Below are positions 203 through 15,172 of a stretch of DNA of 37,460 bases, piece after piece (position 1 is the first letter of the stretch; each line of letters begins with the position of its first letter). A program made the position numbers and the translations under genes. The stretch is from a virus. A model generated the notes under the pieces. It did no database searches and had not been told where the DNA came from. It saw only the letters and a list, made by a program, of their open reading frames with translations. The stretch lies in the IMG/VR virus record IMGVR_UViG_3300028592_000045, positions 1-37,460 of that record; one strand, given 5' to 3'.

Positions 203-207
203 CCCCG

Positions 208-237
208 ATTATGACATTAGCGACACCTAAGTGTCAA
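208..237 (-). promoter_or_regulatory. Promoter/operator unit 1, leftward
   Basis: On the minus strand this is TTGACA (232-237), an 18-bp spacer and CATAAT (208-213). The palindrome GACACTTAGGTGTC overlaps the -35, and TGTC precedes the -10. It has the same architecture and spacing as the units at 1181, 3540, 9222, 11815 and 15107. The stop codon of the methyltransferase gene (234-236) lies inside the -35 box. Confidence 0.8.
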
Positions 238-914
238 TTACCCTGTAGAAAATTCAGGAGCTGACGCCCGATGAATTTCCCGTAGACGGGTGGGATGCAT
301 TCGCGTATCCCGTCCCGGTTCATCCAGGGGACACCCATGTCCCGTCGGGCGTACTCCACCCCGGAGAAATTGCCCACCGCGTGGTACCAGTCCCCGTCCC
401 GGTCCTGGCCCTCCGCCCGGTAGTCCTCCCGGGTCCGCAGGCGGCGCCCCATCTTGACTGTGGGGTGTTTGTGCTCCGGGTCTGCGGGCGCCGTGAGCGT
501 AAGTCCGCCGCCCGGCTCGAAATACCGGTGCCGGTACGTGTGCAGTCCGAACATGGCGCCACACAGCATGACGGGGTTACGGAGCTTGGCCTCCGCGCCG
601 CCCACGTTCTCGATCACCCACGGCTTCCCGGTGGACTCCAGCGCCTCCCGGGTCGGGCCGATCAGGTCCGGGTGATCCCGGCTCATAATCCGCTGGCAGT
701 CGCTGTCATGCTGGCACGGGGGCGAGGCTGCGATGGCGTCGTACTTGTGGCCGTGCTCCCGGATGTACTCGATCGCGTCGCCCTGTATGAAGTCGAACGG
801 GTATCGCGGTTGCGGGTCCTTGTCCACCCCCGTCACGTTGAACCCTGCCAGGGCAAAGCCGTAGTCGGCCCCGCCCTGGCAGCAGAACGCCCCGAGGAGT
901 CGCGCCTTAGCCAC
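234..914 (-). CDS. DNA cytosine-5 methyltransferase
   Basis: This 226-residue protein should transfer a methyl group from S-adenosylmethionine to C5 of cytosine in phage DNA. The class motifs are visible in order: motif I near residues 6-31 (AFCCQGG, ending in GVD), motif IV with SPPCQ and the probable catalytic Cys67, motif VI ENV at 102-104, a motif VIII-like RHRYFE at 128-133, and a C-terminal motif X-like region ending IGRQLLNFL. The target recognition region is short, so this is a minimal enzyme. The start is a GTG at 914, overlapping the upstream gene by 8 bases. No restriction enzyme gene is adjacent, so it is probably an orphan enzyme for evading host restriction (inference). The target sequence cannot be read from the protein. 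Confidence 0.88.
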   Translation of the reverse strand: MAKARLLGAFCCQGGADYGFALAGFNVTGVDKDPQPRYPFDFIQGDAIEYIREHGHKYDAIAASPPCQHDSDCQRIMSRDHPDLIGPTREALESTGKPWVIENVGGAEAKLRNPVMLCGAMFGLHTYRHRYFEPGGGLTLTAPADPEHKHPTVKMGRRLRTREDYRAEGQDRDGDWYHAVGNFSGVEYARRDMGVPWMNRDGIRECIPPVYGKFIGRQLLNFLQGN

Positions 915-1137
915 GGCCCGTCCTGTCCGCCGCGTCAGCCGCTGCGATCAGCTGCGCCGCCGTGGCGCGCGCCTCTTCCGGGGACATGTCCACGATGATC
1001 TCCCGGCCGGCGTTCGCCTTTCCCCCGTCCTCCAGGAGGACAGGAAGACGGACCCGGCTTGCCCCCTCCAGCCACCGGTACGGGGCACGTGCGCCCTCCC
1101 GAGTGGCCGCCCATGCCTTGCGTGCGTCGTACTTCAT
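907..1137 (-). CDS. Small protein of unknown function
   Basis: This 76-residue protein has a basic N-terminal half with two Trp and an Ala-rich helical C-terminus. I recognise no family. The frame could open further upstream at 1185, but that ATG lies inside the -10 box of the promoter at 1181-1210 and could not be on the transcript. The ATG at 1137 follows a GGGGACGGAG ribosome site and is preferred. It is the first gene of a leftward transcript that continues into the methyltransferase gene with an 8-base overlap. Confidence 0.7.
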   Translation of the reverse strand: MKYDARKAWAATREGARAPYRWLEGASRVRLPVLLEDGGKANAGREIIVDMSPEEARATAAQLIAAADAADRTGRG

Positions 1138-1180
1138 GCCGTTCTCCGTCCCCTGCCGGGCCCGTCCCGGCGATGGCTCC

Positions 1181-1210
1181 ATCATGACAGGAATGACACT
1201 CCAGTGTCAA
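1181..1210 (-). promoter_or_regulatory. Promoter/operator unit 2, leftward
   Basis: The minus strand reads TTGACA (1205-1210), 18 bp, CATGAT (1181-1186), with GACACTGGAGTGTC as a perfect-arm palindrome over the -35 and TGTC before the -10. The stop codon of the DNA polymerase gene (1211-1213) touches the -35. It should drive the small gene at 907-1137 and the methyltransferase gene. Confidence 0.85.
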
Positions 1211-3226
1211 CTATTCGTTGGCATAGCACTCTGCCCAATTCGTCCCCGGAGGGGACACCTCGCACAGGATCGGGACGCCCCGCCACTCGAACGTGAACGC
1301 CTCGCGCAGGAGGTCCGACCAGTACGCCGCCTCCGTCTCGGGGACGGAGAGCACGACTTCATCGTGGACGACCGCGCGGAGGTACGGGGTCACCCGGGGG
1401 TCCAGCTGGACGAGACGCAACAACGCCTCGCACATCAGGTCACGAGCGCACCCCTGACCCATCAGGGCCGGCGCCTGCGTGTGCGCCCGCTCCGGGTCGC
1501 AGCGCATCAGGCGGCCGAACCCGTTGTCCAGGAGGTGGCCCTCCTTACCGAGCTGGCGTACCTCCTCCGTCCACTGGATCAGCCGCGGGTAGGCGTAGCT
1601 GCGCCGGAGGAGGGCCGCCTCCACTGTCGCCAGGTCAATCCCGTTTTGCATCGCAGTGGAGTAAGCCGACCCGCCATAGTTCACCTTGTGGTTGATGCCC
1701 TTGGTGCGCTGGCGCGCATCCTTGGTGCGCACCCCGAAATAGACCTCCGCCATGTCCATGTGCGCGTCCCGGCCCGGCTCGAAAAGCTCCATATACCCGG
1801 AGTCCTGCGAGAGGGCGGCCACGCCCCGCATGTCCACCTGCGAAAGGTCGCACGTCAGGTGGACGTGACCGAGCTCGGGGAGGAAAGGAGCGCGTTGCGT
1901 CACCTTCGCACCGTGCTTCCCGAGATTCGTCACGGACGGCCGGGTCATGGCCCACCGCCCGGACGCCTGGTCCTCACCGATCCCGCCGTGGACCCGGCCG
2001 TCGGTGATGTACCCCTGGATCTCCGCGTATTTGGCACTGGCGCCCGTCGCCTCCTCCAGCACCTCGCAGAGCTGGACGACCGCGGGCACGGTCCCGTACG
2101 CCTCCGGATTGCGCATCCCCGGCACGCGTTTGCCCTGCGCGTTCACCCAGTACCCCGACCCCATCGGTTCTTTTCCGATGGCCAGTTCGCCCGTCCCGGT
2201 CCGGGGGAGGTACTCCGCGCCGGCCTGGCGGAACGCGTCCTCCAGTGCATTGCGCCCCGACTTGGTGGCCCACGGCGCCAGGGAGGGCGTCTTGCCGTCC
2301 GCCTTGGTGAGGGGAACGGCGTAGTCCTCGGAGAGCCGGGCCACCGCGCGGGCCCGGCGCGCGTCCTCCTCCTGGACCCGCTGCGCCAGGAGTGGTTGGT
2401 CGACGCGCCAGCCGTTGAACGTCATGCGGTTCTGGAGGGCGGCCACCTTCATCTCCCGGGCGGCGTAATCCCAGTCGCGTATGCGCGAGAACACCGACGA
2501 CTGCACCCGGCGCGTGGCGGCCAGGTCCCCGCGCAGGTACTCCTGGTACTCCGGGTCGTCCACCGGGATGCGCTCCAGGCCGAGCGCAGCGCGCTGCGCC
2601 TTGGGCATCCGGCCCGCCACGCGCTCCCCGTCGTCGTCCGTGTACACCCGCTTCCCGGTGCACCCCTTGTCATGCTGGTCACCTTCGAACGTGCACCCCT
2701 CGCACCGGAGCTGCGGCCCGTGCCAGAGCGCGAGAGACATCAGGTCATCCGTCTTGCCGACGTGCCCGTACCGCTGCGCCGTCTGGTCCAGCCCGTAGTA
2801 CCCGGGCCGGGTCGCGTGCTTGGCGCCGGGCGGGTCCACGAGACGCTCCAGGATGGCCGTGTCCCACGCCTTGGCCGCCAAGGCGTCGTAGTCCGCGCCG
2901 GCGTGGCGGGCCAGTGCCGGGATGTCGAACCGGAACACGTTGTGCCCGACCAGATGGGAGGCGCGCGCCAGCTCCCCCAGGTACTCCGGGGAAAGGGGGC
3001 CGACGTAGGACCATGTCCCGTCCACCTCCTCCGCGCCGCACAGCCGGACGTAGTCCCCCGCGAACTCCCCGCGGTACAGCTTGTCCGCCGACGCCGTCTC
3101 GATGTCGAACGCCAGGACCGCCGGCCCCCTGCGGGCGCAGCCGGGACACCCCACCCGGTCACAGTTGAAACAGTCGCGCTCCGGATCCACCGGGCCCCCG
3201 ACGTGGTATGCGTCGTCCAGTTCCAT
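1211..3226 (-). CDS. DNA polymerase, family A (Pol I-like), with 3'-5' exonuclease
   Basis: This 671-residue protein is the probable phage replicative polymerase. The exonuclease part shows DIET (41-44), HNVFRFD ending at Asp101, and YLRGD (230-234). The polymerase part shows motif A DLSQVDMR (Asp460), motif B with Arg505, Lys509 and Tyr517-Gly518, and motif C HDE (621-623). There are two Cys clusters: CFNCDRVGCPGC at 19-30, and CEGC plus a further Cys at 175-189 inserted in the exonuclease region. Both may bind zinc. Compared with E. coli Pol I, the Glu710 position is Asp465 and the Phe762 position is His513, which is unusual. The start is an ATG behind GGGGACGGA. It is probably co-transcribed with the small gene at 3299-3499. 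Confidence 0.93.
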   Translation of the reverse strand: MELDDAYHVGGPVDPERDCFNCDRVGCPGCARRGPAVLAFDIETASADKLYRGEFAGDYVRLCGAEEVDGTWSYVGPLSPEYLGELARASHLVGHNVFRFDIPALARHAGADYDALAAKAWDTAILERLVDPPGAKHATRPGYYGLDQTAQRYGHVGKTDDLMSLALWHGPQLRCEGCTFEGDQHDKGCTGKRVYTDDDGERVAGRMPKAQRAALGLERIPVDDPEYQEYLRGDLAATRRVQSSVFSRIRDWDYAAREMKVAALQNRMTFNGWRVDQPLLAQRVQEEDARRARAVARLSEDYAVPLTKADGKTPSLAPWATKSGRNALEDAFRQAGAEYLPRTGTGELAIGKEPMGSGYWVNAQGKRVPGMRNPEAYGTVPAVVQLCEVLEEATGASAKYAEIQGYITDGRVHGGIGEDQASGRWAMTRPSVTNLGKHGAKVTQRAPFLPELGHVHLTCDLSQVDMRGVAALSQDSGYMELFEPGRDAHMDMAEVYFGVRTKDARQRTKGINHKVNYGGSAYSTAMQNGIDLATVEAALLRRSYAYPRLIQWTEEVRQLGKEGHLLDNGFGRLMRCDPERAHTQAPALMGQGCARDLMCEALLRLVQLDPRVTPYLRAVVHDEVVLSVPETEAAYWSDLLREAFTFEWRGVPILCEVSPPGTNWAECYANE

Positions 3227-3251
3227 TCCGTCCCCTATCTCTCACCCCGAA

Positions 3252-3280
3252 AGCCACCGACCCGGGGAGGGGCGGTGGCT
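3252..3280 (-). terminator. Hairpin between small gene and polymerase gene
   Basis: AGCCACCG (3252-3259) and CGGTGGCT (3273-3280) form a perfect 8-bp stem with a 13-base, G-rich loop. The hairpin lies in the leader of the polymerase gene. It could be an attenuator or a weak intercistronic terminator; the sequence does not decide. Confidence 0.35.
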
Positions 3281-3298
3281 GCGGGAGTGGGGGAGCGC

Positions 3299-3499
3299 CT
3301 ACCCGAGACGGACCCGGACGGAGAGGCTGCGCAGCCCCGCGTCCAACACGTCCCCGATGAAAGTGCAGCCGTCGGAAGACCTGACGACGCAACCGTCTCC
3401 AGCGAGGACCCGGGAACCGGGACGGCGTACGGCGTCCATCTCCGTCCCACCCGCTTCGATCGCGTCAGCCGTCTTGTCTGATGTGAGTTCGTGAACCAT
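3299..3499 (-). CDS. Small protein of unknown function
   Basis: This 66-residue protein is not recognised. It looks like a small beta-rich fold, with two Cys near the middle and a run of Val/Leu/Arg at the C-terminus. The open frame extends to an ATG at 3541, but that codon overlaps the -10 box of the promoter at 3540-3569. The ATG at 3499 has GGAGG eight bases upstream and is taken as the start. It is the first gene after this promoter, with the DNA polymerase gene downstream, so a role beside replication is possible but unproven. Confidence 0.65.
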   Translation of the reverse strand: MVHELTSDKTADAIEAGGTEMDAVRRPGSRVLAGDGCVVRSSDGCTFIGDVLDAGLRSLSVRVRLG

Positions 3500-3539
3500 C
3501 TGTCTGTCCTCCGGTGTCGTGCTCCGTCTTGGTGTCTCC

Positions 3540-3569
3540 ACTATGACAGAGCTGACACCGGAGTGTCAA
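3540..3569 (-). promoter_or_regulatory. Promoter/operator unit 3, leftward
   Basis: The minus strand shows TTGACA (3564-3569), 18 bp, CATAGT (3540-3545), with GACACTCCGGTGTC over the -35. A second operator-like copy in opposite orientation starts at 3509 (CTCCGGTGTC, then CCGTC), so the two face each other across the start site. It should drive the small gene at 3299-3499 and the DNA polymerase gene. Confidence 0.85.
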
Positions 3570-3573
3570 CCGA

Positions 3574-5781
3574 TCAGGCGAACGGGTTCTTCGGCTGGTC
3601 CGACTCGCGCAGCCGGACCCCGAGCCACCCGCGTTGCTGACGCTTTTCGAAGAACTTGCGCCCGAGCTCCACGTGGCGCTCCGTCATGGTCTCGTGAGAC
3701 CCGAGCCGGCTCCCCAACGTCTTGTCGTTCCAGGGCCGGTGTCCCCGGTCGGTCAGGAACTCGTTGAAGGTGGACATCATCAGGGACGTGGGCACGAACC
3801 CCTCGGGGTCGAACTCCAGGCACTCGTCCGCGAACGCCAGGATCAGGTCCGTCTCGCTGCGCCACGACCGGGTGTCGTGCGCGACCGTCTCCGGGAGGTC
3901 CATCATCATCCGGTCCCGGGCGTACCAGGCGCGCGCGCCGTCAACCATCCAGGCCAGGCAGGCGGCACGGAAGTCGGGGTCGTCGGAGGCGAACTCCAGC
4001 CGGGGATCTCCCAGACGATCGAACGGGCCGCGGACGTCGGCCGCCCTTTTCTTGTACGTGTACGGGAAGGAGAGGAGGGCCAGCCGGCGCCACGTCCCCC
4101 GGTCGGTCTCGGTGACGACCGGGCGGAAGTTCGTGTTGATGAACAGGGAGTGCGTAGCCTTGAAGGTCACCGAGTTCTCACGGATGTGACGGGCCGTGAT
4201 CTGCGGCGTGCCTACCGTTTTCTTGAGCCGTTCCGTGTTCAGGTGGCGCGCCTCCGGGGTCTCCTCCAGCACCGCGTACCGGGCGCCACGGAAGTCCATC
4301 AGTTCCGTGGGGTGGGAGTCGCTGCTCCCGGTGATCGCACGGTCCGACACCAGCACCGCGTACCCGGGCGGGGACGACTCCTTGGACCCGAGCGTGCGCA
4401 TGACGGCATCGGCCAGCGTGCTCTTACCGTTCTCGCCCCCGCCGTGGCTGATCACCATGACGTGGTCCGGCGTCTTGTACCCGGTGACGGACTGGCCAAT
4501 TCGGTCCTGGAACCAGCCCCGGGGTGACTCCGGGAGCGCCTCCAACGCCTTGTCCCATGCCGCGTTACGGAAGCCGGGGCGGTACTCGGCGTCGCAGCAC
4601 CGGGTGATTCGGTCCGCGGGGTCGTGCGGGCGCAGCGTCCCGGAGGGGAGGTGGATCGTCCCGTTGCGTGCGGTGAGGAGGTCCGGGTCGGAGTCGAACT
4701 CCACCGCGTCCGCCTGCACTCCGGCGATGCCACGAGCCAGACCGACCAGTGCCATTATCCGGGACCGGGACAGGATCCCCCTCCACCCGTTGATCTTGGC
4801 GGAGAGGTTCTTCGACTTGTCCTTGGACTGTTCGGCCAGTACCGCATCGAACTGCGACGACGCCCACTGTCGGACGGCCTCCGTGGGGTCGACGTCGGTG
4901 ACCGACTTCCAGACCACGCCGTCCCACCGCATCCAGCCGAGCCCGGCCGCCCACGAGAACCGGCCTTCCAGCGCCTCCGACGCCAGGGACTCCACCAGGA
5001 ACGCGTCCGTGAACGCCGCGTCCACCGCGCCCTGTCCGGGCGGCGCGTCCGCCTCCGCGCTCGCCAGGTCCGCCACGGTCCCGCCGGCCCGGAAGTAGTC
5101 GTCCACGCCCTTGGTCTCGGTCTCGCCGACCGACGCAGGGACCACAACGTAATGAACCTTGGAGGCGCCACGGCTGCGGAGCCACGCCCCGAGCCTGCCC
5201 ATGGCCAGCTGTACGTTGCGGTTCGTGGCGGCGTCCGCGTCGAAACAGAGCACGACCGGCCGGTCCCGGATCGGGATGTCCTCCCAGTCTCCGAGTGTCC
5301 CCATCTTGGAACGCCAGTTGAAGACACCCGTGAGCCCTACGGCCAGGAGGCCGTGACTCACCAGAGCGTCCACCTTTTTCATCCCCTCCGTGATCCAGAG
5401 AGGCTTACTCAAGTCGGTGATGTGCTCCCGGGTGAACGCCGGTACGTCCACCACCAGCGGTGCGCCCGTCGGCGTCTCGTACTTGATCAGGGTCTGCGAC
5501 CCGTCCGGCTTGACCCGGGCCCGGGGCACCGCCGGCTTGATCTGCGTGCCCACGTGCTCGCCGTGGCGGTTGTGCATCGGGATCATCAGGGCCGGGTACG
5601 CGTCGTCGCGGTCCACGACGTGCGGCCGGAACCCGAGACCGGAGAGGAGATCCCGGTCGGCCGGCCCCCCGGTGAGGCTGCGGTATCCCCGCGCCGTGGC
5701 CACGTCCTCGGCCACTGCGGACTCTTCCAGGATTTCGGTGCGGTGCTGCTCAATCAGGTCGTTCAACGTCCGTGCCCCCAT
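3574..5781 (-). CDS. DNA primase/helicase (Toprim plus SF3 helicase)
   Basis: This protein of about 735 residues should prime and unwind DNA at the phage fork. Counting from the ATG at 5781, a Toprim-type region shows WITEG with Glu132 and the acidic pair Asp181-x-Asp183. A D5/P4-like helicase follows, with Walker A GGGENGKST (447-455, Lys453), a Walker B-like AVLEE and a late TDRGTWRR that suits an arginine finger. The frame stays open to a GTG at 5838, but that codon lies in the 88-bp dyad and has no ribosome site, so the ATG at 5781 is preferred with moderate certainty. The stop codon ends five bases before the -35 of the next promoter. Polymerase and primase/helicase together form the replication core. 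Confidence 0.9.
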   Translation of the reverse strand: MGARTLNDLIEQHRTEILEESAVAEDVATARGYRSLTGGPADRDLLSGLGFRPHVVDRDDAYPALMIPMHNRHGEHVGTQIKPAVPRARVKPDGSQTLIKYETPTGAPLVVDVPAFTREHITDLSKPLWITEGMKKVDALVSHGLLAVGLTGVFNWRSKMGTLGDWEDIPIRDRPVVLCFDADAATNRNVQLAMGRLGAWLRSRGASKVHYVVVPASVGETETKGVDDYFRAGGTVADLASAEADAPPGQGAVDAAFTDAFLVESLASEALEGRFSWAAGLGWMRWDGVVWKSVTDVDPTEAVRQWASSQFDAVLAEQSKDKSKNLSAKINGWRGILSRSRIMALVGLARGIAGVQADAVEFDSDPDLLTARNGTIHLPSGTLRPHDPADRITRCCDAEYRPGFRNAAWDKALEALPESPRGWFQDRIGQSVTGYKTPDHVMVISHGGGENGKSTLADAVMRTLGSKESSPPGYAVLVSDRAITGSSDSHPTELMDFRGARYAVLEETPEARHLNTERLKKTVGTPQITARHIRENSVTFKATHSLFINTNFRPVVTETDRGTWRRLALLSFPYTYKKRAADVRGPFDRLGDPRLEFASDDPDFRAACLAWMVDGARAWYARDRMMMDLPETVAHDTRSWRSETDLILAFADECLEFDPEGFVPTSLMMSTFNEFLTDRGHRPWNDKTLGSRLGSHETMTERHVELGRKFFEKRQQRGWLGVRLRESDQPKNPFA

Positions 5782-5830
5782 CGGTGAACCCCGCGTGCTG
5801 CGAGGCTGGTTGGTGCTCCCGGCTACGGGA

Positions 5831-5918
5831 CTAGACACTATAGACAGCAGAACCTGTTAACCGCCAGATACGAAACTCGCATGAGCCGTTACCGGATCCT
5901 GCTGTCTATCCCGTCTAG
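5831..5918. repeat. 88-bp imperfect dyad element, copy 1
   Basis: This 88-bp block begins and ends with CTAG and is an imperfect palindrome. Outer arms ATAGACAGCA and TGCTGTCTAT enclose GTTAAC-like boxes and a central ATACGA/TCGCAT pair. A direct copy of the same length lies at 24158-24245 with 76 of 88 bases identical. This copy sits between the primase gene and the HTH gene, and its last bases supply the HTH gene's TAG stop. Possible roles are a promoter/regulator site, a structured RNA, a recombination site or a small mobile repeat. Confidence 0.85.
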
Positions 5919-6133
5919 TTCCGGGTGCGTCGCTCTCCATGGCGCGCGTCGTAGCGCTCCTGGCGGAACCGCTCCACCTCGCCGCTGTCTACGAACACCC
6001 GGCGGGACCCGGGGTCCCGGATGGGGGTGAGGTGGCCGGCTTCCAGGTACCGGAAGACGGAACGCATGGTGACGCCGAGTTCGCCCGCCACCTGATCAAG
6101 TGACAGGCGCGGGGGTGGCTTCTTCTTAGTCAT
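5915..6133 (-). CDS. Small HTH DNA-binding protein (excisionase/MerR-like)
   Basis: This 72-residue protein has a basic start followed by a winged-helix-type segment: LSLDQVAGELGVTMRSVFRY (residues 10-29), then a wing region with RRVFV. This is the pattern of excisionase-type and MerR-like small DNA binders. It probably binds phage DNA as a regulator or accessory recombination protein. No integrase is in the window to pair it with. It is the first leftward gene at the divergent region, upstream of the dyad and the primase gene. Its stop codon lies in the dyad. It could be the protein that binds the dyad, but nothing in the sequence proves this. Confidence 0.8.
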   Translation of the reverse strand: MTKKKPPPRLSLDQVAGELGVTMRSVFRYLEAGHLTPIRDPGSRRVFVDSGEVERFRQERYDARHGERRTRN

Positions 6134-6158
6134 ACCGGGAGGCTAAGGCCACCGCGTC

Positions 6159-6195
6159 ATGTTGACAATGGCGACACTACAGTGTCACCCTTGTC
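6159..6195. promoter_or_regulatory. Divergent operator with weak leftward promoter
   Basis: The palindrome GACACTACAGTGTC (6173-6186) is flanked on both sides, after exactly 5 bases, by GACA (6164-6167) and TGTC (6192-6195). This is the only copy with both flanks. On the minus strand GTGACA (6183-6188), 18 bp, CAACAT (6159-6164) matches the shared layout with a poor -10 box. The rightward -10 equivalent (CGCCTA) is worse. It controls the leftward HTH gene and probably the rightward LuxR-type gene. Confidence 0.7.
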
Positions 6196-6215
6196 GCCTA
6201 ACGAGAGGAGCACAC

Positions 6216-6590
6216 ATGAAGGGCATCAAGGCACTCACGCCCCGGGACCTCCAGGTTATCCGGATGATCGCGCAGGGCACCGAGCGGGACGCCGTGGCGG
6301 ACGAACTCGGGGTATCGCGCAGCAGCATCAACCGCCAGCTGCGCCACGCGTTCGACTCCACCGACACCAGGAACGCCGCCCACCTGATCGCGACCCTGGC
6401 ACGGGCGGGCGTGGAGGGGTTCGTGCCGCCTGCGTACACCAAGCTGGTGGACACGAGCACCGACACCCGGGACCGCGTGGTCCGCAAGATTCGGGCCGAG
6501 ATGATCAAATCCCCGTTGGGCTCCGCGGAGGAGCACACCAACTACGTGATCGAGCAGCTGGCCGCCATGGTGCACCGGGAGTTGTCGTGA
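6216..6590 (+). CDS. LuxR-type helix-turn-helix regulator
   Basis: This 124-residue protein begins with a LuxR/GerE-type DNA-binding segment: LTPRDLQVIRMIAQG, then VADELGVSRSSINRQLRHAF. The helical C-terminus may be for oligomerisation. The family binds promoter DNA as a dimer, but no receiver or ligand domain is attached here. The ATG at 6216 follows GAGAGGAG; the earlier in-frame ATG at 6159 lies inside the operator and is rejected. It is the first rightward gene after the divergent operator, so it may be autoregulated. It is one candidate for the protein that controls the repeated promoter units. It overlaps the next GTG by 4 bases. Confidence 0.8.
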   Translation: MKGIKALTPRDLQVIRMIAQGTERDAVADELGVSRSSINRQLRHAFDSTDTRNAAHLIATLARAGVEGFVPPAYTKLVDTSTDTRDRVVRKIRAEMIKSPLGSAEEHTNYVIEQLAAMVHRELS

Positions 6591-7574: not shown

Positions 7575-9225
7575 CTACCAGGAGGATGCGATCACCGCCG
7601 TCTTCAAGGCGTGGTCGGAGGACATGACCCGGCCCGCCATCGTGCTCCCCCCCGGGGCGGGCAAGACGGTCGTGTTCTCCGCCCTGATCAAGAAGTCCCG
7701 CCGGGCGCAGGAGCACCCGGCGGGACCGATGCGGGTGTACCCGGGCGTCGGCCGCCGCGTCATCGTGCTCGTGCACCGTGACGAACTGGCGGACCAGGCC
7801 ATGGCCAAGATTCACTCGGTGGCGCCAGAGCTGACGGTGGGAAAGGTCAAGGCGTCCGTACGCCAGGTGAACGCCGACGTCATGGTGTGCTCGGTGCAGA
7901 CCCTGGCCCGGGGCACCGCCGTCAAACAGATCAAGGTGAGCGAGGCGTTCCACGGGCCGGTCGGCCTGATCATCACGGACGAGTGCCACCACGCCGCCGC
8001 CCCGTCCTACCGCCAGGTGTTCGCGCAGTTCCCCGACGCCCTCCAGCTCGGGGTCACCGCCACCATGGCCCGGGGCGACGGCGGCGGACTCGGGGACGTG
8101 TGGGAGGAGGTGGTGTACTCCCGGTCCATCCTCTGGATGATGTCCCGCGGGTATCTGTCCCCGGTGACGACCCGGCAGATCCAGCTCAAGGAGCTGGACA
8201 TGTCCGGGGTGAAGACGACCCGGGGCGACTACGCCGCAGAGGATCTCGGCCGCGCCATGATCGAGGCGGAGGCGGACCGGGCCATCCCGCGTGCGTACAA
8301 AGAGCACGCCGGCAACCGTCCCGGGATCATCTTCACCCCGACCGTGGCCACCGCGCAGGCGACGGCCGACGCCATGACGCTGGCCGGGATACGGACCGCG
8401 GTCGTGTCCGGCGAGACGGAGAAGGAGGAGCGCCACCGGATCTACGACGACTTCCGGCACGGGCGCGTTCAGGTCCTGGTCAACTGCATGGTGCTCACGG
8501 AGGGGTTCGACGCGCCGTGGGCAGAGGTGGCCGTCATCGCGCGCCCCACCAAGTCCACGCCCCTCTACACGCAGATGGTCGGCCGTGTCCTGCGCCTGTG
8601 GCCGGGCAAGGAATCGGCGCTCGTGCTGGACCTTGTGGGGGCGTCGGCCAACAAGATCAAAACCCTGATCGACCTGGAACCGGGTCTCGTCAAGAGGATC
8701 AAGGAGGACGAGACGCTGGAGGAGGCCGTCCTCCGGGAAGAGGAGGAGGCGGAGGCGGCCGGCGAGGTACCGGCCCGGCCCGGCTCTATCCTCTTCGATC
8801 TCAAGCATCGCGACGTGGACATGTTCTCCGCGTCGGACATGGTGTGGCTCCAGACCCGGGCCGGGATCCTCTTCATCGAGGCGGGAGGGTGCATCATCAG
8901 CCTGTTCCGGTCCCTGGAGAACCCGACCCTTATGGACGTGGTGGGGTACCGCCAGGGGGACGGTCTGCCCACCCGGCACTCGGAACACCGGAACCTTGAC
9001 CTTCCCACCGCGATGGCGTGGGGCGAGGTGGTGGCGGAGGAGCTCACCGGTCACAGCCTGGCCAAGTCGGCGTCGTGGCGCAGGAAGCCGGCGTCCCCGG
9101 GACAGATCCAGTTGGCCGAGGCGTTCGGTATCAACGTCACGGGCATGAAGTGCGGCGCCGTGTCCGACGCCATCTCGGTGACCAAGGCCTCCGACGTGAT
9201 GGACCAGTGGGCGGAATGGGCTTGA
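7549..9225 (+). CDS. DEAD/DEAH-box (SF2) helicase
   Basis: This 558-residue ATP-dependent helicase of the restriction-III/DEAD type probably remodels DNA in replication or recombination. Counting from the GTG at 7549, the Q-motif-like start is LRDYQEDAI, Walker A is PPGAGKT with Lys39, motif II is DECHH from Asp144, motif III is TATMA, and motif VI is QMVGRVLR with Gln342 and Arg346/349. The C-terminal 120 residues hold no known motif. The GTG is preferred over the ATG at 7459 because it follows AAGGGACC and gives the usual short N-terminus. Its TGA stop lies inside the -35 box of the next promoter. Confidence 0.9.
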   Translation: MSDELKLRDYQEDAITAVFKAWSEDMTRPAIVLPPGAGKTVVFSALIKKSRRAQEHPAGPMRVYPGVGRRVIVLVHRDELADQAMAKIHSVAPELTVGKVKASVRQVNADVMVCSVQTLARGTAVKQIKVSEAFHGPVGLIITDECHHAAAPSYRQVFAQFPDALQLGVTATMARGDGGGLGDVWEEVVYSRSILWMMSRGYLSPVTTRQIQLKELDMSGVKTTRGDYAAEDLGRAMIEAEADRAIPRAYKEHAGNRPGIIFTPTVATAQATADAMTLAGIRTAVVSGETEKEERHRIYDDFRHGRVQVLVNCMVLTEGFDAPWAEVAVIARPTKSTPLYTQMVGRVLRLWPGKESALVLDLVGASANKIKTLIDLEPGLVKRIKEDETLEEAVLREEEEAEAAGEVPARPGSILFDLKHRDVDMFSASDMVWLQTRAGILFIEAGGCIISLFRSLENPTLMDVVGYRQGDGLPTRHSEHRNLDLPTAMAWGEVVAEELTGHSLAKSASWRRKPASPGQIQLAEAFGINVTGMKCGAVSDAISVTKASDVMDQWAEWA

Positions 9226-9251
9226 CACTCCGGTGCCACCCCTGTCATAGT
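9222..9251 (+). promoter_or_regulatory. Promoter/operator unit 4, rightward
   Basis: TTGACA (9222-9227), 18 bp, CATAGT (9246-9251), with GACACTCCGGTGCC over the -35 and TGTC before the -10. The helicase stop codon (9223-9225) is inside the -35. It drives the genes from 9287 onward. One operator arm deviates (GTGCC for GTGTC), so repressor binding may be weaker here. Confidence 0.82.
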
Positions 9252-9262
9252 TGAGTCATCGG

Positions 9263-9289
9263 GACGGAGCAACGGAGGAGAGACAGATG
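9263..9289 (+). repeat. 27-bp direct repeat over a ribosome site, copy 1
   Basis: The 27 bases 9263-9289, including GGAGGAG and the ATG, are identical to 9816-9842. Both copies form the translation start of a gene. The exact match suggests duplication of the leader or gene conversion. Confidence 0.85.
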
Positions 9290-9718: not shown

Positions 9719-9774
9719 CGCGCCGCAGATGCGGAACGGTGCGCGCCGGGGGCTACGTCAGCCCCGCTCCACCC

Positions 9775-9802
9775 GCCCCTGCGCCGCACGCCGGCCAGGG
9801 GC
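9775..9802 (+). terminator. Hairpin after the 9287-9718 gene
   Basis: GCCCCTG (9775-9781) pairs with CAGGGGC (9796-9802), with further GC pairing inside the loop. A smaller hairpin, GGGGCT/AGCCCC, lies at 9749-9765. The right arm belongs to a 27-28 base block repeated at 10084-10110. No U-run follows, so termination may be partial. Confidence 0.5.
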
Positions 9803-9817
9803 TTACGGGGTGCCAGA
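9790..9817 (+). repeat. Intergenic repeat block, copy 1
   Basis: The block from GCCGGCC through GGGGTGCCAGA recurs at 10084-10110 with one deletion and two substitutions. Each copy forms the right arm of a hairpin ahead of a small gene, so the hairpin-leader unit appears duplicated around the gene at 9840-10049. Confidence 0.7.
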
Positions 9818-9842
9818 CGGAGCAACGGAGGAGAGACAGATG
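9816..9842 (+). repeat. 27-bp direct repeat over a ribosome site, copy 2
   Basis: Identical to 9263-9289. It provides the GGAGGAG ribosome site and the ATG for the gene at 9840-10049. Confidence 0.85.
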
Positions 9843-10049
9843 GCCAGTGTCACGGACCGCAAGGACGCCGAGGAGTACCGGGGCCGGTCCCCGGAGAGCA
9901 TCGTTCGCCGTATCTGGGGGAGGTCCGCTGAACTCCAGGCCTTTACCCGGATCGGCGTGGAGCCCATGGACTCGTGCTTCATGGCGGAGGTGACCCGGAA
10001 GAACCGTTACGGGACCCGCGTCCTGGCGCACGTCGTCGTCCGCCCCTGA
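9840..10049 (+). CDS. Small basic protein of unknown function
   Basis: This 69-residue protein is rich in Arg, with a helical N-terminal half (SPESIVRRIWGRSAELQAF) and a beta-like C-terminus ending HVVVRP. The family is not recognised. The start is fixed by the ribosome site in the 27-bp repeat shared with the upstream gene. It is flanked on both sides by related hairpin blocks, so this stretch looks like a duplicated expression cassette with unrelated contents. Confidence 0.65.
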   Translation: MASVTDRKDAEEYRGRSPESIVRRIWGRSAELQAFTRIGVEPMDSCFMAEVTRKNRYGTRVLAHVVVRP

Positions 10050-10070
10050 CCCGCACGACCGCAGTCCCCA

Positions 10071-10094
10071 CCCCGACCGGTTCGCCGGCCGGGG
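10071..10094 (+). terminator. Hairpin with UUCG loop
   Basis: CCCCGACCGG and CCGGCCGGGG form a 10-bp stem with one mismatch and the stable UUCG tetraloop. It lies between the genes at 9840-10049 and 10140-10712. A second stem, GGGTGCC/GGCACCC (10101-10121), follows directly in the next gene's leader. Confidence 0.6.
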
Positions 10095-10110
10095 CATAAG
10101 GGGTGCCAGA
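10084..10110 (+). repeat. Intergenic repeat block, copy 2
   Basis: Second copy of the block at 9790-9817, with one base deleted and two changed. It forms the right arm of the UUCG hairpin. Confidence 0.7.
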
Positions 10111-10139
10111 ACCAGGCACCCGAACGACAGGGGGCAGTC

Positions 10140-10712
10140 ATGCCACGGAACCAGAACCTTGACCCGGCCAACCCCGCCACGTACCGCCGGAACTACAGCC
10201 GGGTCCTTCATTTCGCACGCAGCCGCGGAGCCGTCATCGTGGCCGACGTCAATGGCGTGTACGGGACGCCCGTGGAGTTCGCTCCCCGCGCCCGCACCGA
10301 CTCCAAGCCGTGGCGCCCGACGGACCCGGCGCTCATTCACGTCCGCCTCTCCGGAAACCAGTGCCGGGTCCAGGAGGAGACGGCATGCCGCTTCTCCGCG
10401 GACGCGGCGGACTACACGGTTACCGCCTACGTGGCGAACCGCGCCGTCGGGCACCTCACCTGGCGCCGTGTCGGGGGCGAGGTGCGCTACGTGTGGGTCA
10501 GTCCCGAGTACCGCCGGCGCCGCATCGCAACGGCCATGTGGAAGTACGCGAACCGGCGCGTGGACTCCTCGGTGCGCACCGTCGGGGCCGTCCCCCTTAC
10601 GGCACCACGCCACGCCCGGGAGCTGTCCCCGGAGGGACGTCTCTGGATCGCCTCGCTCCACTCCACCAAGGTGGCCCGCTGGGAGGCGGCCAAGCGGGGA
10701 GAGGCGTCGTGA
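10140..10712 (+). CDS. GNAT-like acetyltransferase domain protein
   Basis: In this 190-residue protein, residues 100-150 look like the core of a GNAT N-acetyltransferase: a beta strand VGHLTWRRV, then VRYVWVSPEYRRRRIATAMW, in which RRRRIA sits where the acetyl-CoA pyrophosphate loop of the family lies. The N-terminal 80 residues are basic and unrecognised. The substrate is unknown; phage members may modify host proteins or small molecules. The start is a clear ATG behind AGGGGGCAG. The stop overlaps the next gene (TGATG). Confidence 0.65.
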   Translation: MPRNQNLDPANPATYRRNYSRVLHFARSRGAVIVADVNGVYGTPVEFAPRARTDSKPWRPTDPALIHVRLSGNQCRVQEETACRFSADAADYTVTAYVANRAVGHLTWRRVGGEVRYVWVSPEYRRRRIATAMWKYANRRVDSSVRTVGAVPLTAPRHARELSPEGRLWIASLHSTKVARWEAAKRGEAS

Positions 10713-10942
10713 TGGCGGCGCGTCACGCGCTTCCCGTCACGGACCCCGGAGCCTTATTCGACGCGAGGTGGGCGGACTCCGCCCTCCGGGCGTCGGCCCG
10801 GGTCCAGGACGCCGACGCCCGTATCCGGGCCCTGACGTTCCTGGTGTCCGACCACTGGCGGGAGCGCGCCGCACGTATCAGGGTGCTGCGGTGGCTGGAG
10901 GCACGGGAAGTCGAGACGGCGGAGAGGGAGGGGCGGGGATGA
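10712..10942 (+). CDS. Small helical protein of unknown function
   Basis: This 76-residue protein is strongly helical, Ala/Arg-rich and highly charged, and has no Cys. The family is not recognised. The start is the ATG at 10712, which shares a base with the upstream stop; a GTG three bases earlier is equally possible. The stop overlaps the next ATG (ATGA). Confidence 0.6.
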   Translation: MAARHALPVTDPGALFDARWADSALRASARVQDADARIRALTFLVSDHWRERAARIRVLRWLEAREVETAEREGRG

Positions 10943-11313
10943 CGACGGAGGCATGGGTCCCGCCCGTCCCCTTCTGCGGGAACGGACACGACCTGTCCGT
11001 GGAGGGTCGGCCACGCACGGACGACGGACACCGGTACCGGTGCATGGAGTGCCAGCGTAAAGCGCACATCCGGCACCGCGGAGAACCGGGGCACCACCCG
11101 GACGAGATGGCCGTGGACCGTCTCGTCCACGGGGACCGTCCCGAGCAACCACGGCGGGTGGACGTCTTCCACGCCGTGACCTACCTGGAGCGGACGGAGA
11201 GCCTGTCCGCCCGTCAGATAGCGGAGCGTGTCGGGGTTTCCTCCCGCACGGTCGTCCGCATCCGAGGAAAGCTGAGAGAGGGTGTGCCGTATGGGATTCG
11301 GGTCCAGCGGTAG
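10939..11313 (+). CDS. HTH protein with N-terminal zinc motif
   Basis: In this 124-residue protein, residues 13-40 carry CGNGHD and YRCMECQRKAH, a likely Cys/His zinc site. The C-terminal half holds a helix-turn-helix, SARQIAERVGVSSRTVVRIR, typical of DNA-binding regulators of the resolvase and sigma-like type. It probably binds DNA and is a second candidate for the phage regulator, besides the LuxR-type protein. The start overlaps the upstream stop. Its last 23 bases overlap the nuclease gene in another frame. Confidence 0.75.
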   Translation: MTTEAWVPPVPFCGNGHDLSVEGRPRTDDGHRYRCMECQRKAHIRHRGEPGHHPDEMAVDRLVHGDRPEQPRRVDVFHAVTYLERTESLSARQIAERVGVSSRTVVRIRGKLREGVPYGIRVQR

Positions 11314-11809
11314 CGGAAGCCGGGAGCCGGTCAAGACGGTGGCCAAGCCGAGACGGGCGAGGAACACGAATCGTCAGGGCGCCGGCTTTGAGTTGATGAT
11401 CATGCGGGACCTGACCCGGTACGGGTACATCGCGCACCGGTCCTCGGGGTCCCGGGGTGCGGTGGACGTCGTGGCCGTCGGGGCGGAGACAACGCTCTGG
11501 ATCCAGGCCAAGATCACCGCCACCGTCATCCCTCCCGAGGAGCGCCGGTCCGTGATCGATCTGGCCGAGCGGGTGGGGGCGTCGGCAATACCGATGTCCG
11601 CGTACCGGGACAGGGGCGTCGTCCGCTACCGGTTCCTCACCGGGTACGGGCCGGCGGACTGGTTGCCGTGGGAACCGGAGCCGCTGCGGTTCGCGCTCTG
11701 CGGACACACGGCGTGCGCGCACACGATGGGGTGGCACGACGCGCACGGATGCTGGTCCGCAGCGGACACGGCGGCGTGCGCGTGTCCGGGGTTCCGACTC
11801 GCTAACTGA
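11291..11809 (+). CDS. Hjc-like Holliday junction resolvase with zinc tail
   Basis: This 172-residue protein shows the PD-(D/E)xK nuclease pattern of archaeal-type Holliday junction resolvases: a basic start, Glu34 in GFELMIMRDL, Asp59 in GAVDVV, then QAK (Gln72, Lys74). It probably cuts branched DNA formed in replication and packaging. The C-terminus adds a Cys/His module (142-165), C-x-H-x4-H-x3-G-C-x8-C-x-C, absent from the usual short family members. Close relatives of this module occur twice in the next gene. The ATG at 11291 lies inside the upstream gene behind GAGAGGG. Confidence 0.8.
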   Translation: MGFGSSGSGSREPVKTVAKPRRARNTNRQGAGFELMIMRDLTRYGYIAHRSSGSRGAVDVVAVGAETTLWIQAKITATVIPPEERRSVIDLAERVGASAIPMSAYRDRGVVRYRFLTGYGPADWLPWEPEPLRFALCGHTACAHTMGWHDAHGCWSAADTAACACPGFRLAN

Positions 11810-11814
11810 AACGG

Positions 11815-11844
11815 TTGACACTGGGGTGTCGTGACTGTCACTAT
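11815..11844 (+). promoter_or_regulatory. Promoter/operator unit 5, rightward
   Basis: TTGACA (11815-11820), 18 bp, CACTAT (11839-11844), with GACACTGGGGTGTC over the -35. The unit is the left half of a 52-bp inverted repeat (11817-11868) with 23-base arms matching at 21 positions around the center ACTATG. It drives the gene at 11893 and the membrane-protein operon behind it. Confidence 0.82.
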
Positions 11845-11845
11845 G

Positions 11846-11868
11846 GACAGGCACGGCACCCCAGTGTC
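11846..11868 (-). promoter_or_regulatory. Inverted second operator copy
   Basis: Read on the minus strand, this is GACACTGGGGTGCC, five bases, TGTC: a second operator facing the first across the -10 region. A protein bound at both could bridge over the start site. Similar facing pairs occur at 3509-3563 and 15113-15155. Confidence 0.7.
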
Positions 11869-11892
11869 GTGTCTGACAGGAAGTGGGAAGAG

Positions 11893-12681
11893 ATGGACCG
11901 GGAACAGATCAGGGCCGTCGCACTGGACAACGCGTGTCGACTGGCCGCCGCCGGCCACCTGTACGTCGGGGACACGGACATCCGCACGCAGGCCTCCATC
12001 CTGGAGGCGGCCGGCCGGTTCGAGGCGTGGCTGACACGGGACACGGGCACGGACACGGACACGGACACGGCGGAGGACACGGGCACCGTCGCGTGCTCGG
12101 GGTGCGAGCACGCCCCGCACATCGGCCGGTGCCCGCAGTTCTTGAAGGGTCCGTTCGGTCCGTGGCGGTGCGCCTGCGACCTGGACACGCCGGCGGACAC
12201 GGTCACCGCGTGCGGGTGGAACCCGGGCACACCTGGACCCAATTGTGACTGGGACCGTGCCTGCCCCGAGCACGGCGCGTCGGCCGCCGCCATGGGCGTG
12301 CCCGCCCCGAGCACGGACACGGACACGGGCACGGACACGGGCACGGACACGGGCACGGACACGATCCTGAGTGACTGGGACATGTGCCCGTGCGGGCACG
12401 CGGGAGCCTGGCACAGTAACGACGCGTACGGGTGTCAGGGTGCGCACGGGCACCGGCCGTGCGGGTGCTTGAAGAGCGGCACGCTCGTGGCGTTCGGCAA
12501 GCTCCCGGAAATTCCGGACACGGACACGGACCTCCTGCTGTGCGCCGGGCACGCGCGCGGACAGAACTTCCGCGACGGGTGCCAGCACGTCCGCGGTGAC
12601 CACGACGAAAACGGGTACGGGTGCCGGGTCACCGTGGGCGACCGCGAGGTATGCCCGTGCACGCGCGCAGGGGGCAACTGA
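11893..12681 (+). CDS. Multi-zinc-motif protein with Thr/Asp repeat linkers
   Basis: This 262-residue protein has a helical N-terminal domain of about 45 residues, then Cys/His clusters separated by runs of alternating Thr/Gly and Asp (residues 48-62 and 140-156). Two clusters (167-192 and 230-256) match C-x-H-x4-H-x5-G-C-x(8-9)-C-x-C, the module also fused to the neighbouring nuclease. Others include CSGCEH and CDWDRACPEH. The linkers are encoded by 6- and 12-bp satellite DNA. The family is not recognised; a zinc-bound scaffold that binds nucleic acid or protein is plausible. The ATG at 11893 follows GGAAG; upstream codons lie in the promoter. Its stop overlaps the next ATG by one base. Confidence 0.7.
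   Translation: MDREQIRAVALDNACRLAAAGHLYVGDTDIRTQASILEAAGRFEAWLTRDTGTDTDTDTAEDTGTVACSGCEHAPHIGRCPQFLKGPFGPWRCACDLDTPADTVTACGWNPGTPGPNCDWDRACPEHGASAAAMGVPAPSTDTDTGTDTGTDTGTDTILSDWDMCPCGHAGAWHSNDAYGCQGAHGHRPCGCLKSGTLVAFGKLPEIPDTDTDLLLCAGHARGQNFRDGCQHVRGDHDENGYGCRVTVGDREVCPCTRAGGN
12033..12085 (+). repeat. Hexamer satellite (Thr/Asp linker 1)
   Basis: Near-perfect tandem GGACAC/GGGCAC hexamers encode alternating Thr and Asp/Gly. The same type of array recurs at 12312-12363 and in the following gene. Confidence 0.85.
12312..12363 (+). repeat. 12-bp satellite (Thr/Asp linker 2)
   Basis: Three successive perfect copies of GGGCACGGACAC within a longer hexamer array, in frame, encoding TGTD repeats. 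Confidence 0.9.
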
Positions 12682-13805
12682 TGTGGCGTCCACCGCGGGG
12701 ACTGGACGCACTCAAGTGGGTGTCCATGGCGTGCGCGATCGTCTTCACAGCCAAGGCCGAGCACGACTTGGCAATGGCCATTCCCGGCATGGACCCGTTC
12801 GTGGCCGCCGCCGTCCCCGGAGCGCTGGACGCGTACGTGGTGCGCGCCCTCCAGCGGAACCGGGAGGTGCTCGTGGCGGTGGCCGCCATGATCTCCGTCA
12901 ACGCCGCCTCGCACCTGGAGGCGGCCGACTTGATCGATATGAACTGGAAACTCATTACGGCTGTGTCCGCCATCGCACCGCTCGTGCTCTGGCGTGTCCA
13001 CTCCCTCCGGGACCCGGGCACGTGGCGGGAGCGGAAGCTGTGGGGCGTGGACACGGGCACAGACACGGTCACGGGCGTTCCCGCCCTGGACTACGCCGAC
13101 CAGACGGACACGAGCACGGGCACGGGCACGGACACGAGCACGGGCACGCCTGCGGACACGGTCACGTGTGACTGGTGTGGCTGGACACAGTGCCCGGCCG
13201 CCCACCTGGAGCACCACAAGGAGCACGCGTGCACGGAGCGGTTCAGGCACACGGACACGGCCCCGAGCACGGTCCCGGACACGGCCCCGAGCACGGTCCC
13301 GGACACGCTCACCGAGGCGGACACGGACTTCCTGGCCGAGCACGCGGAGCGGACACGCTCCCTCTTCAAGGACTGGCCCGTGCCCGCGGCTGCGCCCCGT
13401 AACGGTGTGTCCGTGCGCGTGCCCGCTTCGGTCCCGATGGTGTCGTACCACCCGGGTACGGACCGCGTGGAGCCGTACGAGCACACCCCGAGCACGGACA
13501 CGGACACGAGCACGCCCGTGCTCACCGCCGTGCCTCCGCTCCCCGAGCAGTACCCGGGCACGCCGACGGACACGGGTACGGACACGGCCCCGGACACGAG
13601 CACGCGCAACCGTGAGCACGTGTCCGCCGGCCGGATCCTCGCGTCGGACACGGCGCACATGGACACGGCGCGCGACGTCTTCACCAAGCACGGAGGCGGT
13701 GACGGCATCGTGCGCGCCATGAAGTCGGGCATCGGTTCGGGCACGGCACGGGCACAGCGGCTGACCGCGGCGTGCAAGCACGAGCACGCCGAGGGGTGGC
13801 TGTGA
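12681..13805 (+). CDS. Membrane protein with Thr/Asp linkers and HTH-like C-terminus
   Basis: In this 374-residue protein, residues 10-105 hold four hydrophobic stretches, including the ends MDPFVAAAVPGALDAYVV and WKLITAVSAIAPLVLW. The layout resembles the DUF2637/Spd-type membrane proteins of Streptomyces plasmids and phages (resemblance by pattern only). A long Thr/Asp/Pro linker follows, interrupted by a CDWC plus HLEHHKEH zinc-like motif. The last 50 residues (ARDVFTKHGG then GIGSGTARAQRL) look like a short HTH. It may tether DNA or a protein complex to the membrane. The DNA has the same GACAC-rich satellites as the preceding gene, with which it is probably co-expressed. Confidence 0.7.
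   Translation: MWRPPRGLDALKWVSMACAIVFTAKAEHDLAMAIPGMDPFVAAAVPGALDAYVVRALQRNREVLVAVAAMISVNAASHLEAADLIDMNWKLITAVSAIAPLVLWRVHSLRDPGTWRERKLWGVDTGTDTVTGVPALDYADQTDTSTGTGTDTSTGTPADTVTCDWCGWTQCPAAHLEHHKEHACTERFRHTDTAPSTVPDTAPSTVPDTLTEADTDFLAEHAERTRSLFKDWPVPAAAPRNGVSVRVPASVPMVSYHPGTDRVEPYEHTPSTDTDTSTPVLTAVPPLPEQYPGTPTDTGTDTAPDTSTRNREHVSAGRILASDTAHMDTARDVFTKHGGGDGIVRAMKSGIGSGTARAQRLTAACKHEHAEGWL
13253..13300 (+). repeat. 24-bp perfect tandem duplication
   Basis: Two perfect, adjacent 24-bp copies (GGACACGGCCCC followed by GAGCACGGTCCC) encode DTAPSTVP twice. The identity indicates recent expansion. Related looser arrays lie at about 13047-13165, 13483-13515 and 13559-13603. Confidence 0.9.
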
Positions 13806-14017: not shown

Positions 14018-14036
14018 ACCGTGGGGACGGTACGAA

Positions 14037-14588
14037 ATGAACTGGTGGACAGCTGCGCCGACCATGGGGTCCTGCGCACTCGGCATTGCGCTTTTGCTCG
14101 GGATCCTGGCCGAATGGTGGCCGGGTCTCGGAGCCTTCCAGGGGTCGAAGAAAGGGAAGAGCGGCGTCAAGGACGCCATCCTCACCCTGGCCCCCCTGGC
14201 CCTGTCCTACTGCTACGGAATGCTGGTCATTCTCGGTGTCGGCGGACTGGTCGGGTGGCTGGCCAATTTCACCTTGTGGGGCGTCGGGTGGGTCGGTGAC
14301 GGCGCACTCATCTGGGGCGTGGGCGGCACCCGGGCGAACATCGGTCTCGGCGGACAGCGCATGGTCCTGACCAACGGCGGATTGATGGTCATGCTCGTGG
14401 CCACGTTCGTCATCCTCGCCATCCGCAGGCGGCCCAAGACATCCGCGTGGACCGTCCGGTGCATCAACCGGGGCGTGCTCTGCGGCATCCTCACCGGCAC
14501 CGTGGCCTCCATCAGCGCCGCCATGGCCATCCCTCTTGCCTCCGCGGTGAACGCAGCCGGCCAGTGGTTCCCGGGCGGCGCAGCATGA
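14037..14588 (+). CDS. Membrane protein, about four TM segments
   Basis: This 183-residue protein has hydrophobic stretches near residues 10-28, 48-78, 112-130 and 145-170, separated by basic (KKGKSG, RRRPK) and Gly-rich loops, so it should span the inner membrane about four times. I recognise no family; the general layout resembles TrbC/VirB2-like or holin-like small membrane proteins, but nothing is decisive. The ATG follows GGGGACGG. The stop overlaps the next gene (ATGA). It belongs with other membrane-protein genes from 12681 to 15048. Confidence 0.7.
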   Translation: MNWWTAAPTMGSCALGIALLLGILAEWWPGLGAFQGSKKGKSGVKDAILTLAPLALSYCYGMLVILGVGGLVGWLANFTLWGVGWVGDGALIWGVGGTRANIGLGGQRMVLTNGGLMVMLVATFVILAIRRRPKTSAWTVRCINRGVLCGILTGTVASISAAMAIPLASAVNAAGQWFPGGAA

Positions 14589-14755
14589 CGCGGAAGAGGT
14601 CCCAGGGTGGGCACCGACGGGCCGTCAAGCGCACGCAGGCAGACGCCCGGCGACGACGCATCGACCTGCGTCGCTCCGCCGAGGAGCGCGAGGCGTGCCA
14701 GGCGCCCGGCCCGTGTCCGTGCCCCGGCTGCGTGCCGGAAGAGGAAGGGCCGTGA
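14585..14755 (+). CDS. Small basic protein with Cys-rich end
   Basis: This 56-residue protein has a very basic first part (many Arg and Lys) and a C-terminal CQAPGPCPCPGC. It may bind nucleic acid or zinc. The family is not recognised. It overlaps its neighbours by 4 bases on each side, which supports it as a real gene. Confidence 0.55.
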   Translation: MTRKRSQGGHRRAVKRTQADARRRRIDLRRSAEEREACQAPGPCPCPGCVPEEEGP

Positions 14756-15048
14756 ACCGGCCCCGGGTGCGGCCCCCGTGGCGGTGGCGGTGGGGGCGGG
14801 TCCTCCTCTTCCTGGCCAAAGTCGCCGGCTGGTGGGTCCTCCTCCGGTGGGCCCCGGTGCTCGGTATCCCGTGCGCTCTGTGGATCGCGATGCAGATACG
14901 TGCACTGCCCAACGAACCACTCCCCTCCCCCACCGTCGCCCCCCTCTCGGGGGAGATCGTCGCAGGTCACCGAGTTGAGAAGAGGTACGGCAATGCGCAG
15001 ACTACGTTCCATCCTGGCCCGGGTGAGCGGTGCGAGGTTCGCCGTTGA
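14752..15048 (+). CDS. Small membrane protein
   Basis: This 98-residue protein begins at a GTG overlapping the previous stop, behind GGAAGAGGAAGGG. It has a very basic, Trp-rich start, then two hydrophobic stretches around residues 17-50 (VLLFLAKVAGWWVLL and VLGIPCALWIAM). The positive N-terminus suggests it stays in the cytoplasm. The family is not recognised. The small gene at 14993 overlaps its end. Confidence 0.6.
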   Translation: MNRPRVRPPWRWRWGRVLLFLAKVAGWWVLLRWAPVLGIPCALWIAMQIRALPNEPLPSPTVAPLSGEIVAGHRVEKRYGNAQTTFHPGPGERCEVRR

Positions 15049-15106
15049 GCCCGTCTACTGGTGTGCGCCCTGCGCCTGCGCGCACCCGCTTCCGCTCCAC
15101 GGCTGA
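14993..15106 (+). CDS. 37-residue peptide, tentative
   Basis: A short frame opens at an ATG behind AGAGG and ends just before the promoter at 15107. The basic helical start is followed by WCAPCACAH, a compact Cys/His cluster. It overlaps the upstream gene by 56 bases in another frame. The stop touching the promoter matches how neighbouring genes end. Without homologues it remains tentative. Confidence 0.4.
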   Translation: MRRLRSILARVSGARFAVEPVYWCAPCACAHPLPLHG

Positions 15107-15136
15107 TTGACACTGGAGTGTCTGTCCTGTCATGAT
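15107..15136 (+). promoter_or_regulatory. Promoter/operator unit 6, rightward
   Basis: TTGACA (15107-15112), 18 bp, CATGAT (15131-15136), with GACACTGGAGTGTC over the -35 and TGTC before the -10. It is nearly identical to unit 2 on the other strand. The region 15113-15155 forms an inverted pair with 21-base arms matching at 18 positions. It drives the small membrane gene at 15173. Confidence 0.85.
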
Positions 15137-15172
15137 GACGGGGCAGGCACTCCAGCCATGTAAGGGGACGGA

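Follow-up and report, generated by a model that had tools for sequence, protein, structure and literature searches.

Gene layout and promoter units

The window, by which we mean the whole stretch of DNA analysed here, is a virus record of 37,460 bases with a G+C content of 69% and a tailed-phage gene set. Leftward genes encode a methyltransferase-like protein, a DNA polymerase and a primase, and rightward genes encode a regulator, a helicase, unknown proteins and an amidase-type endolysin, followed by the terminase, portal, head and tail genes. The best matches of the replication and capsid proteins are actinophage proteins, and a megablast search of the phage collection with positions 1-12000 as query returned neither a near relative nor a cultured phage. 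Many repeats with a 12-bp period and GGACACG words were found at 12038-13608 inside long open reading frames, and this stretch is probably a coding repeat region.

Six promoter units, each with an exact TTGACA, an 18-bp spacer and a -10 hexamer of the form CAT(A/G)(A/G)T or CACTAT, were found exactly where the original prediction had placed them (Table 1). The seventh, weaker unit that had been proposed at 6159 is real as well, but it has to be read on the minus strand (GTGACACTGTAGTGTC-GCCAT-TGTCA-ACAT), where its palindrome is perfect; what reads as TTGACA on the plus strand at 6162 is its third half-site in complement. The units lie directly at gene ends or before the lysis genes, and the expectation that they would serve the early and lysis modules and be absent from the terminase-to-tail genes was borne out, as no above-chance copy of the palindrome occurs in the latter.

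Table 1. Promoter/operator units, additional operator copy and candidate regulator genes of the window
Feature	Position	Strand	Palindrome	Sequence and neighbourhood
Unit 1	208..237	-	222-235	TTGACACTTAGGTGTCGCTAATGTCATAAT; its driven gene leaves the window at the left end
Unit 2	1181..1210	-	1195-1208, perfect	Immediately past the DNA polymerase stop codon; promoter of a small ORF and of the methyltransferase-like gene 234-914
Unit 3	3540..3569	-	3554-3567	Immediately past the primase stop codon; promoter of a small ORF and of the DNA polymerase
BldC/Xis/MerR-like winged-HTH gene	5915..6133	-		72 aa; candidate regulator; syntenic in relatives
Unit 7	6159..6188	-	6173-6186, perfect	Weak core promoter (GTGACA / CAACAT); divergent region with a regulator gene on either side
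NarL/GerE-like HTH gene	6216..6590	+		124 aa, C-terminal part helical; favoured as candidate regulator; syntenic in relatives
Unit 4	9222..9251	+	9224-9237	-35 contains the helicase stop codon
Unit 5	11815..11844	+	11817-11830	
Second operator copy	11847..11870	-	11855-11868	Inverted palindrome-N5-TGTC downstream of unit 5, without a good -35
Unit 6	15107..15136	+	15109-15122, perfect	Degenerate inverted copy immediately downstream; stands before the lysis genes, an 85-aa ORF followed by the amidase-type endolysin (15552-16661)

The putative operator of the window, TGACACT-NN-RGTGTCN, is a dyad (GACACTNNRGTGYC) of 7-2-7 spacing that shares bases with the -35 and with the spacer in its upstream half. 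The TGTC that follows as a third half-site need not be a protein site, since its TG occupies the position of an extended -10 (TGn) and the -10 hexamer begins with its C; this element may also be read as a plain extended -10.

Conservation within the units

A position weight matrix built from the six units scores 44-52 on them, which is partly circular as the units themselves built the matrix, while the best score in ten Markov-shuffled windows was 14. Only two other real matches exceed this value, namely 6188(-) at 27 and 11870(-) at 18. Independently of the matrix, the palindrome GACACTNNAGTGTC with at most two mismatches was found 10 times compared with 1.5 expected matches, a count that none of 100 shuffles reached, and the whole pattern searched backward as a control gave no match.

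When the six units are aligned from the first T of TTGACA, pairwise identity is 1.0 in the -35 and in TGT and 0.89 at the outer palindrome positions, compared with 0.27 for the two bases at the palindrome centre and 0.25 for four spacer bases, which is about the level of chance. Because these in-between bases have drifted to chance identity, the palindrome arms and TGTC are under selection rather than freshly duplicated; the conservation pattern of the units reflects selection and not recent copying. The palindrome has moreover been kept without a good promoter at two sites, 6159-6188 and 11847-11870.

Both observations bear on the alternative that the units are only host-type promoters, which would resemble each other through recent copying or serve as recombination cassettes for gene exchange. 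In an exact-pattern scan of viral contigs, the sole match was a near-identical virus (L008), which retains all three units within its length. A comparison of L008:156-461 with window positions 9300-9874 shows that the helicase-end unit (unit 4) is retained while the following ~0.6 kb has been replaced, so that the next gene differs, and that the leader after this unit resembles the leader of the window unit at 3569. Units may thus act as exchange points, and their location right at gene ends would suit such a role. Recent copying, however, does not predict in-between bases at chance identity, nor does a mere promoter account for a palindrome that is retained where the promoter is poor, and we regard this alternative as very improbable.

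Relatives and turnover of the unit sequences

Searches with the primase and helicase located a clade of about 19 uncultured actinophage records, the helicases and primases of which are ~50-60% identical to those of the window. Nearly every member has a set of its own, with between two and five near-identical promoter units that as a rule occupy both strands. Examples are, from the -35 on, TTGACA-N17-TTTACTTAAGTCATC, TTGACA-N17-TTTAATTGAGACATC, TTGACGCGATCGCACCACATGGTGTCTACTAGAGACATC and TTGACAGGCGCCTGCCTTCTGGTGCACACTTAGGTCATC. Many of these units are syntenic with those of the window, as they are located at the helicase end, at the polymerase end or in the gap between the divergent HTH genes, and in G011 a unit also precedes the lysis genes as it does in the window. 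As the units are syntenic but differ between phages, it follows that their positions are conserved while their sequences turn over jointly within a genome. Such unit sets were not found in the early regions of Nocardia phage NBR1, Microbacterium phage OscarSo and Corynebacterium phage phi674 nor, by the same method, in the stretches read of L147, L149 and contig 57 of G015. With regard to the polymerase itself, the window protein (1211-3226, 671 aa) and its G018 counterpart share 66% identity, whereas in several other relatives the polymerase reading frame spans ~1,400 codons.

The 24-bp palindrome-TGTC pattern of the window is absent from the primase-level relatives, in which only isolated matches with three mismatches occur, and a looser version of the pattern gave ten single matches over the viral contigs. 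It had been proposed that relatives keeping the promoters and losing the palindrome would speak against common control. This is the case for one half, in that promoter positions are retained and the palindrome sequence of the window is lost; part of the clade nevertheless has a palindrome of another sequence at the same centre, and the units match each other within a phage. In the window, the operator keeps a constant distance from the core promoter at several promoters. Palindromes of differing sequence have their centre 8.5 bases downstream of the initial T of TTGACA in the window, in G011/G017, in G026/G029 and in G018. A random spacer would reach such a palindrome score at centre 8.5 with a probability of 0.0076 per lineage, a value to be read as a guide and not as a clean p-value, given that the shared centre was spotted by eye before testing. 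G024 scores only 2 at this centre, a second unit class of G018 has its palindrome centre at 16.5, and the remaining relatives are without a spacer palindrome; one change on the helicase tree separates the palindrome lineages from the rest. G026 repeats its own palindrome just ahead of the HTH gene, with GTGACA but without a -10.

The spacer and leader of some units, both in the window (11815-11870 and 15107-15150) and in relatives (G004, G007 and G027), make up an inverted repeat that flanks the -10 and whose arms vary between units. The own arms pair better than permuted ones (p ~0.0002 overall, 0.002 without the window and 0.0008 within phage); in the window they are partly the second operator copy, and in the relatives they are unit-specific.

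Candidate regulators

Two regulator genes flank the divergent region in almost every relative. Three HTH proteins had been put forward as binders, of which the products of 6216-6590 and 5915-6133 fit, whereas the gene at 10939-11313 has no counterpart among the relatives and was rejected as the regulator.

The product of 6216-6590 contains a LuxR/GerE HTH domain according to Pfam (GerE, 27.1 bits at a cut-off of 23.5), profile matches to NarL and GerE, and Foldseek, where its predicted structure (pLDDT 86) has NarL bound to DNA as best match (E 0.03, probability 1.0). NarL prefers inverted heptamers 2 bp apart, and its DNA-binding domain alone is able to repress (PMC4549865). The phage protein thus resembles the LuxR-type regulators NarL and GerE in its fold, and its presumed site does so in the 7-2-7 spacing; it differs from them in that it lacks a receiver domain and has an extra helical C-terminal part, and the heptamer sequence differs as well.

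The product of 5915-6133 is a small stand-alone MerR-like winged-HTH protein without a dimerisation domain, as is typical of the BldC family. Its best profile match is BldC and its best Foldseek matches are Pukovnik Xis followed by BldC, while the Pfam models MerR and HTH_17 score below their cut-offs. It is thus similar to BldC and to phage Xis/Apl-type proteins in size and fold. BldC sites are 9-bp direct repeats of AATTXXXX(C), the C of which is read by Arg30 (PMC5859096), and at the aligned position the phage BldC-like proteins have an invariant Arg. An element spanning the -10 and +1 that is found throughout the clade (AATTAAGAC, ACTTAAGTC, ACTAGAGAC etc.) fits this pattern in most relatives and in four of the six window units. 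Between this gene and the primase start, a long-range inverted repeat (tagacactatagacagca ... tgctgtctatcccgtcta) was noticed at ~5830-5925, and an origin or an attenuator are possible explanations for it.

The question arises which of the two proteins reads the units. In a Mantel comparison of unit and regulator distances, the raw correlation was 0.51 for the BldC-like protein and lower for the NarL-like protein, and unit/protein covariation was not significant for either once helicase distance was controlled. Since this comparison could not separate the regulators from phylogeny, our assignment rests on geometry, fold and neighbourhood. We favour a model with two regulators, namely the NarL-like protein on the palindrome and the BldC-like protein on the -10/+1 element, because the palindrome has the 7-2-7 spacing of NarL sites, the -10/+1 element fits the BldC pattern and Arg30 is aligned.

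Several points weigh against this model. In addition to the Mantel result, the recognition helices of the NarL-like proteins vary among relatives whose units are nearly the same, although these relatives lack a spacer palindrome; the lineages with a spacer palindrome are confined to one part of the helicase tree, and the protein features they share therefore count as one event; and neither the class of G018 centred at 16.5 nor the low score of G024 agrees with a uniform register. A recognition-helix arginine common to the palindrome lineages was rejected as covariation for the same reason, as a single change on the tree accounts for it.

One could alternatively imagine that the BldC/Xis-like protein is the main regulator, which would form a head-to-tail filament over the spacer, the -10 and the start site on short direct repeats, namely GTGTC and CTGTC at a distance of 9 bp, with GAGnC beyond them. 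The profile and structure matches, the aligned arginine, the fit of the -10/+1 element and the higher raw correlation all agree with this. The most conserved feature of the window units is, however, an inverted and not a direct repeat, the expected C is missing from two of the six units, and the correlation loses its significance after controlling for the helicase. From our point of view this makes a leading role of the BldC/Xis-like protein unlikely, albeit the strongest of the competing explanations.

Proposed mechanism

That one phage protein controls the whole set, as the original prediction held, is likely in view of the common operator, the conserved palindrome and the flanking HTH genes, although binding itself is deduced from these features. 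The units would represent early and lysis promoters with one common operator for a phage-encoded dimeric HTH regulator, most likely the NarL/GerE-like protein, and a dimer on this operator would keep RNA polymerase off all these promoters simultaneously. As its gene adjoins the operator copy at 6159-6188, this protein could also control its own region, and the BldC/Xis-like protein would probably act as second regulator near the -10/+1 element. The early promoters would fire upon infection, and the regulator would then shut them down or balance them as replication and late expression take over. We assign a probability of about 0.5 to such an early/lysis regulon with a candidate phage HTH dimer, most likely NarL-like, on the -35; which protein binds, that binding represses and when it does so are the parts that we infer.

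It is conceivable that the bound protein activates instead, with promoters that are weak by themselves and a polymerase that is assisted by a regulator located between the -35 and the -10. The -10 of most relatives (TTTACT, TTTAAT, TCTACT) indeed lacks the usual A at the second base and hence looks like a weak sigma-A site. In the window, however, a perfect consensus -35 and a TGn-extended -10 should need no help, and a dyad over the -35 and the spacer is in the typical position of a repressor. Activation is hence distinctly less plausible than repression by the NarL-like dimer, and we consider it improbable.

Comparison with known systems

In phage phiC31, conserved inverted repeats at early promoters are bound by the c repressor, and this phage is temperate and has an integrase. 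The units described here are similar in that conserved inverted repeats adjoin near-consensus early promoters of an actinophage; they differ in that no integrase was found in 15 records of this clade. As to the Cluster A mycobacteriophages, site sequences vary between phage groups. The window resembles Cluster A phages such as L5 and TipsytheTRex in having many near-identical sites across an actinophage genome, some of which overlap early promoters. In those phages the sites are read by one phage HTH protein, the counterpart of which is predicted here. The stoperators of Cluster A are asymmetric 13-bp sites that are bound by a monomer and occur also in intergenic spaces along transcription units (PMC9283540), whereas the site of the window is a dyad with strong copies only at the promoter units and in the divergent control region; an integrase was moreover not found. 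The proposal that the units work as stoperators do is therefore not supported, given the placement and the symmetry of the sites.

Repeated short intergenic dyads have also been described in Cluster O mycobacteriophages (PMC4351075) and Cluster EG Microbacterium phages (PMC7302621). Cluster O genomes contain more than 30 copies genome-wide, with no fixed promoter register mentioned in the passages considered, as opposed to the 7-8 copies of the window that are locked onto the -35. Apl of phage 186 regulates between divergent early promoters through direct repeats (PMC7498355). In contrast to Xis/Apl-type systems, no integrase that an excisionase could serve was found here. Overall, the set likely works like an operator regulon of early promoters that stands out by its fixed geometry and changing sequence.

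Lifestyle and hosts

In 15 clade records, which are possibly incomplete, neither a tyrosine integrase nor a resolvase/serine recombinase nor a ParA-type ATPase was found. As such, a lysogenic immunity repressor and an excisionase role of the Xis-like protein are not indicated. In two relatives outside the set searched for ParA, G009 (record coordinates 2052 and 2640) and G013 (21142, 21665 and 22253), a repeated GATGTTTCACGTGAAACATC resembles parS centromere sites.

One could speculate that this integrase-less clade retains syntenic early promoters in which the place of the operator is fixed while its sequence is rewritten per lineage in all copies. This would represent a system of regulatory specificity in which diversification does not depend on lysogeny and possibly serves to escape cross-control when relatives co-infect a cell. 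We put this forward tentatively and consider it possible at best. If the main reading is correct, the ~19 phages form a natural series in which the promoter architecture is kept and the operator sequence and its reader change, so that the joint switching of specificity of a regulator and all its genomic sites becomes directly testable. It would further mean phage-wide operator control without an integrase, for which superinfection immunity is not the obvious reason, and the units could be developed into orthogonal promoter-repressor pairs for use in actinobacteria.

The MuF-like head gene has relatives (L147, L148 and L149) on contigs of Streptomyces sp. 130, where the contig is 37,997 bp long, Streptosporangium amethystogenes and Streptomyces sp. 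adm13. Without implying lysogeny, this suggests Streptomyces and Streptosporangium as possible hosts.
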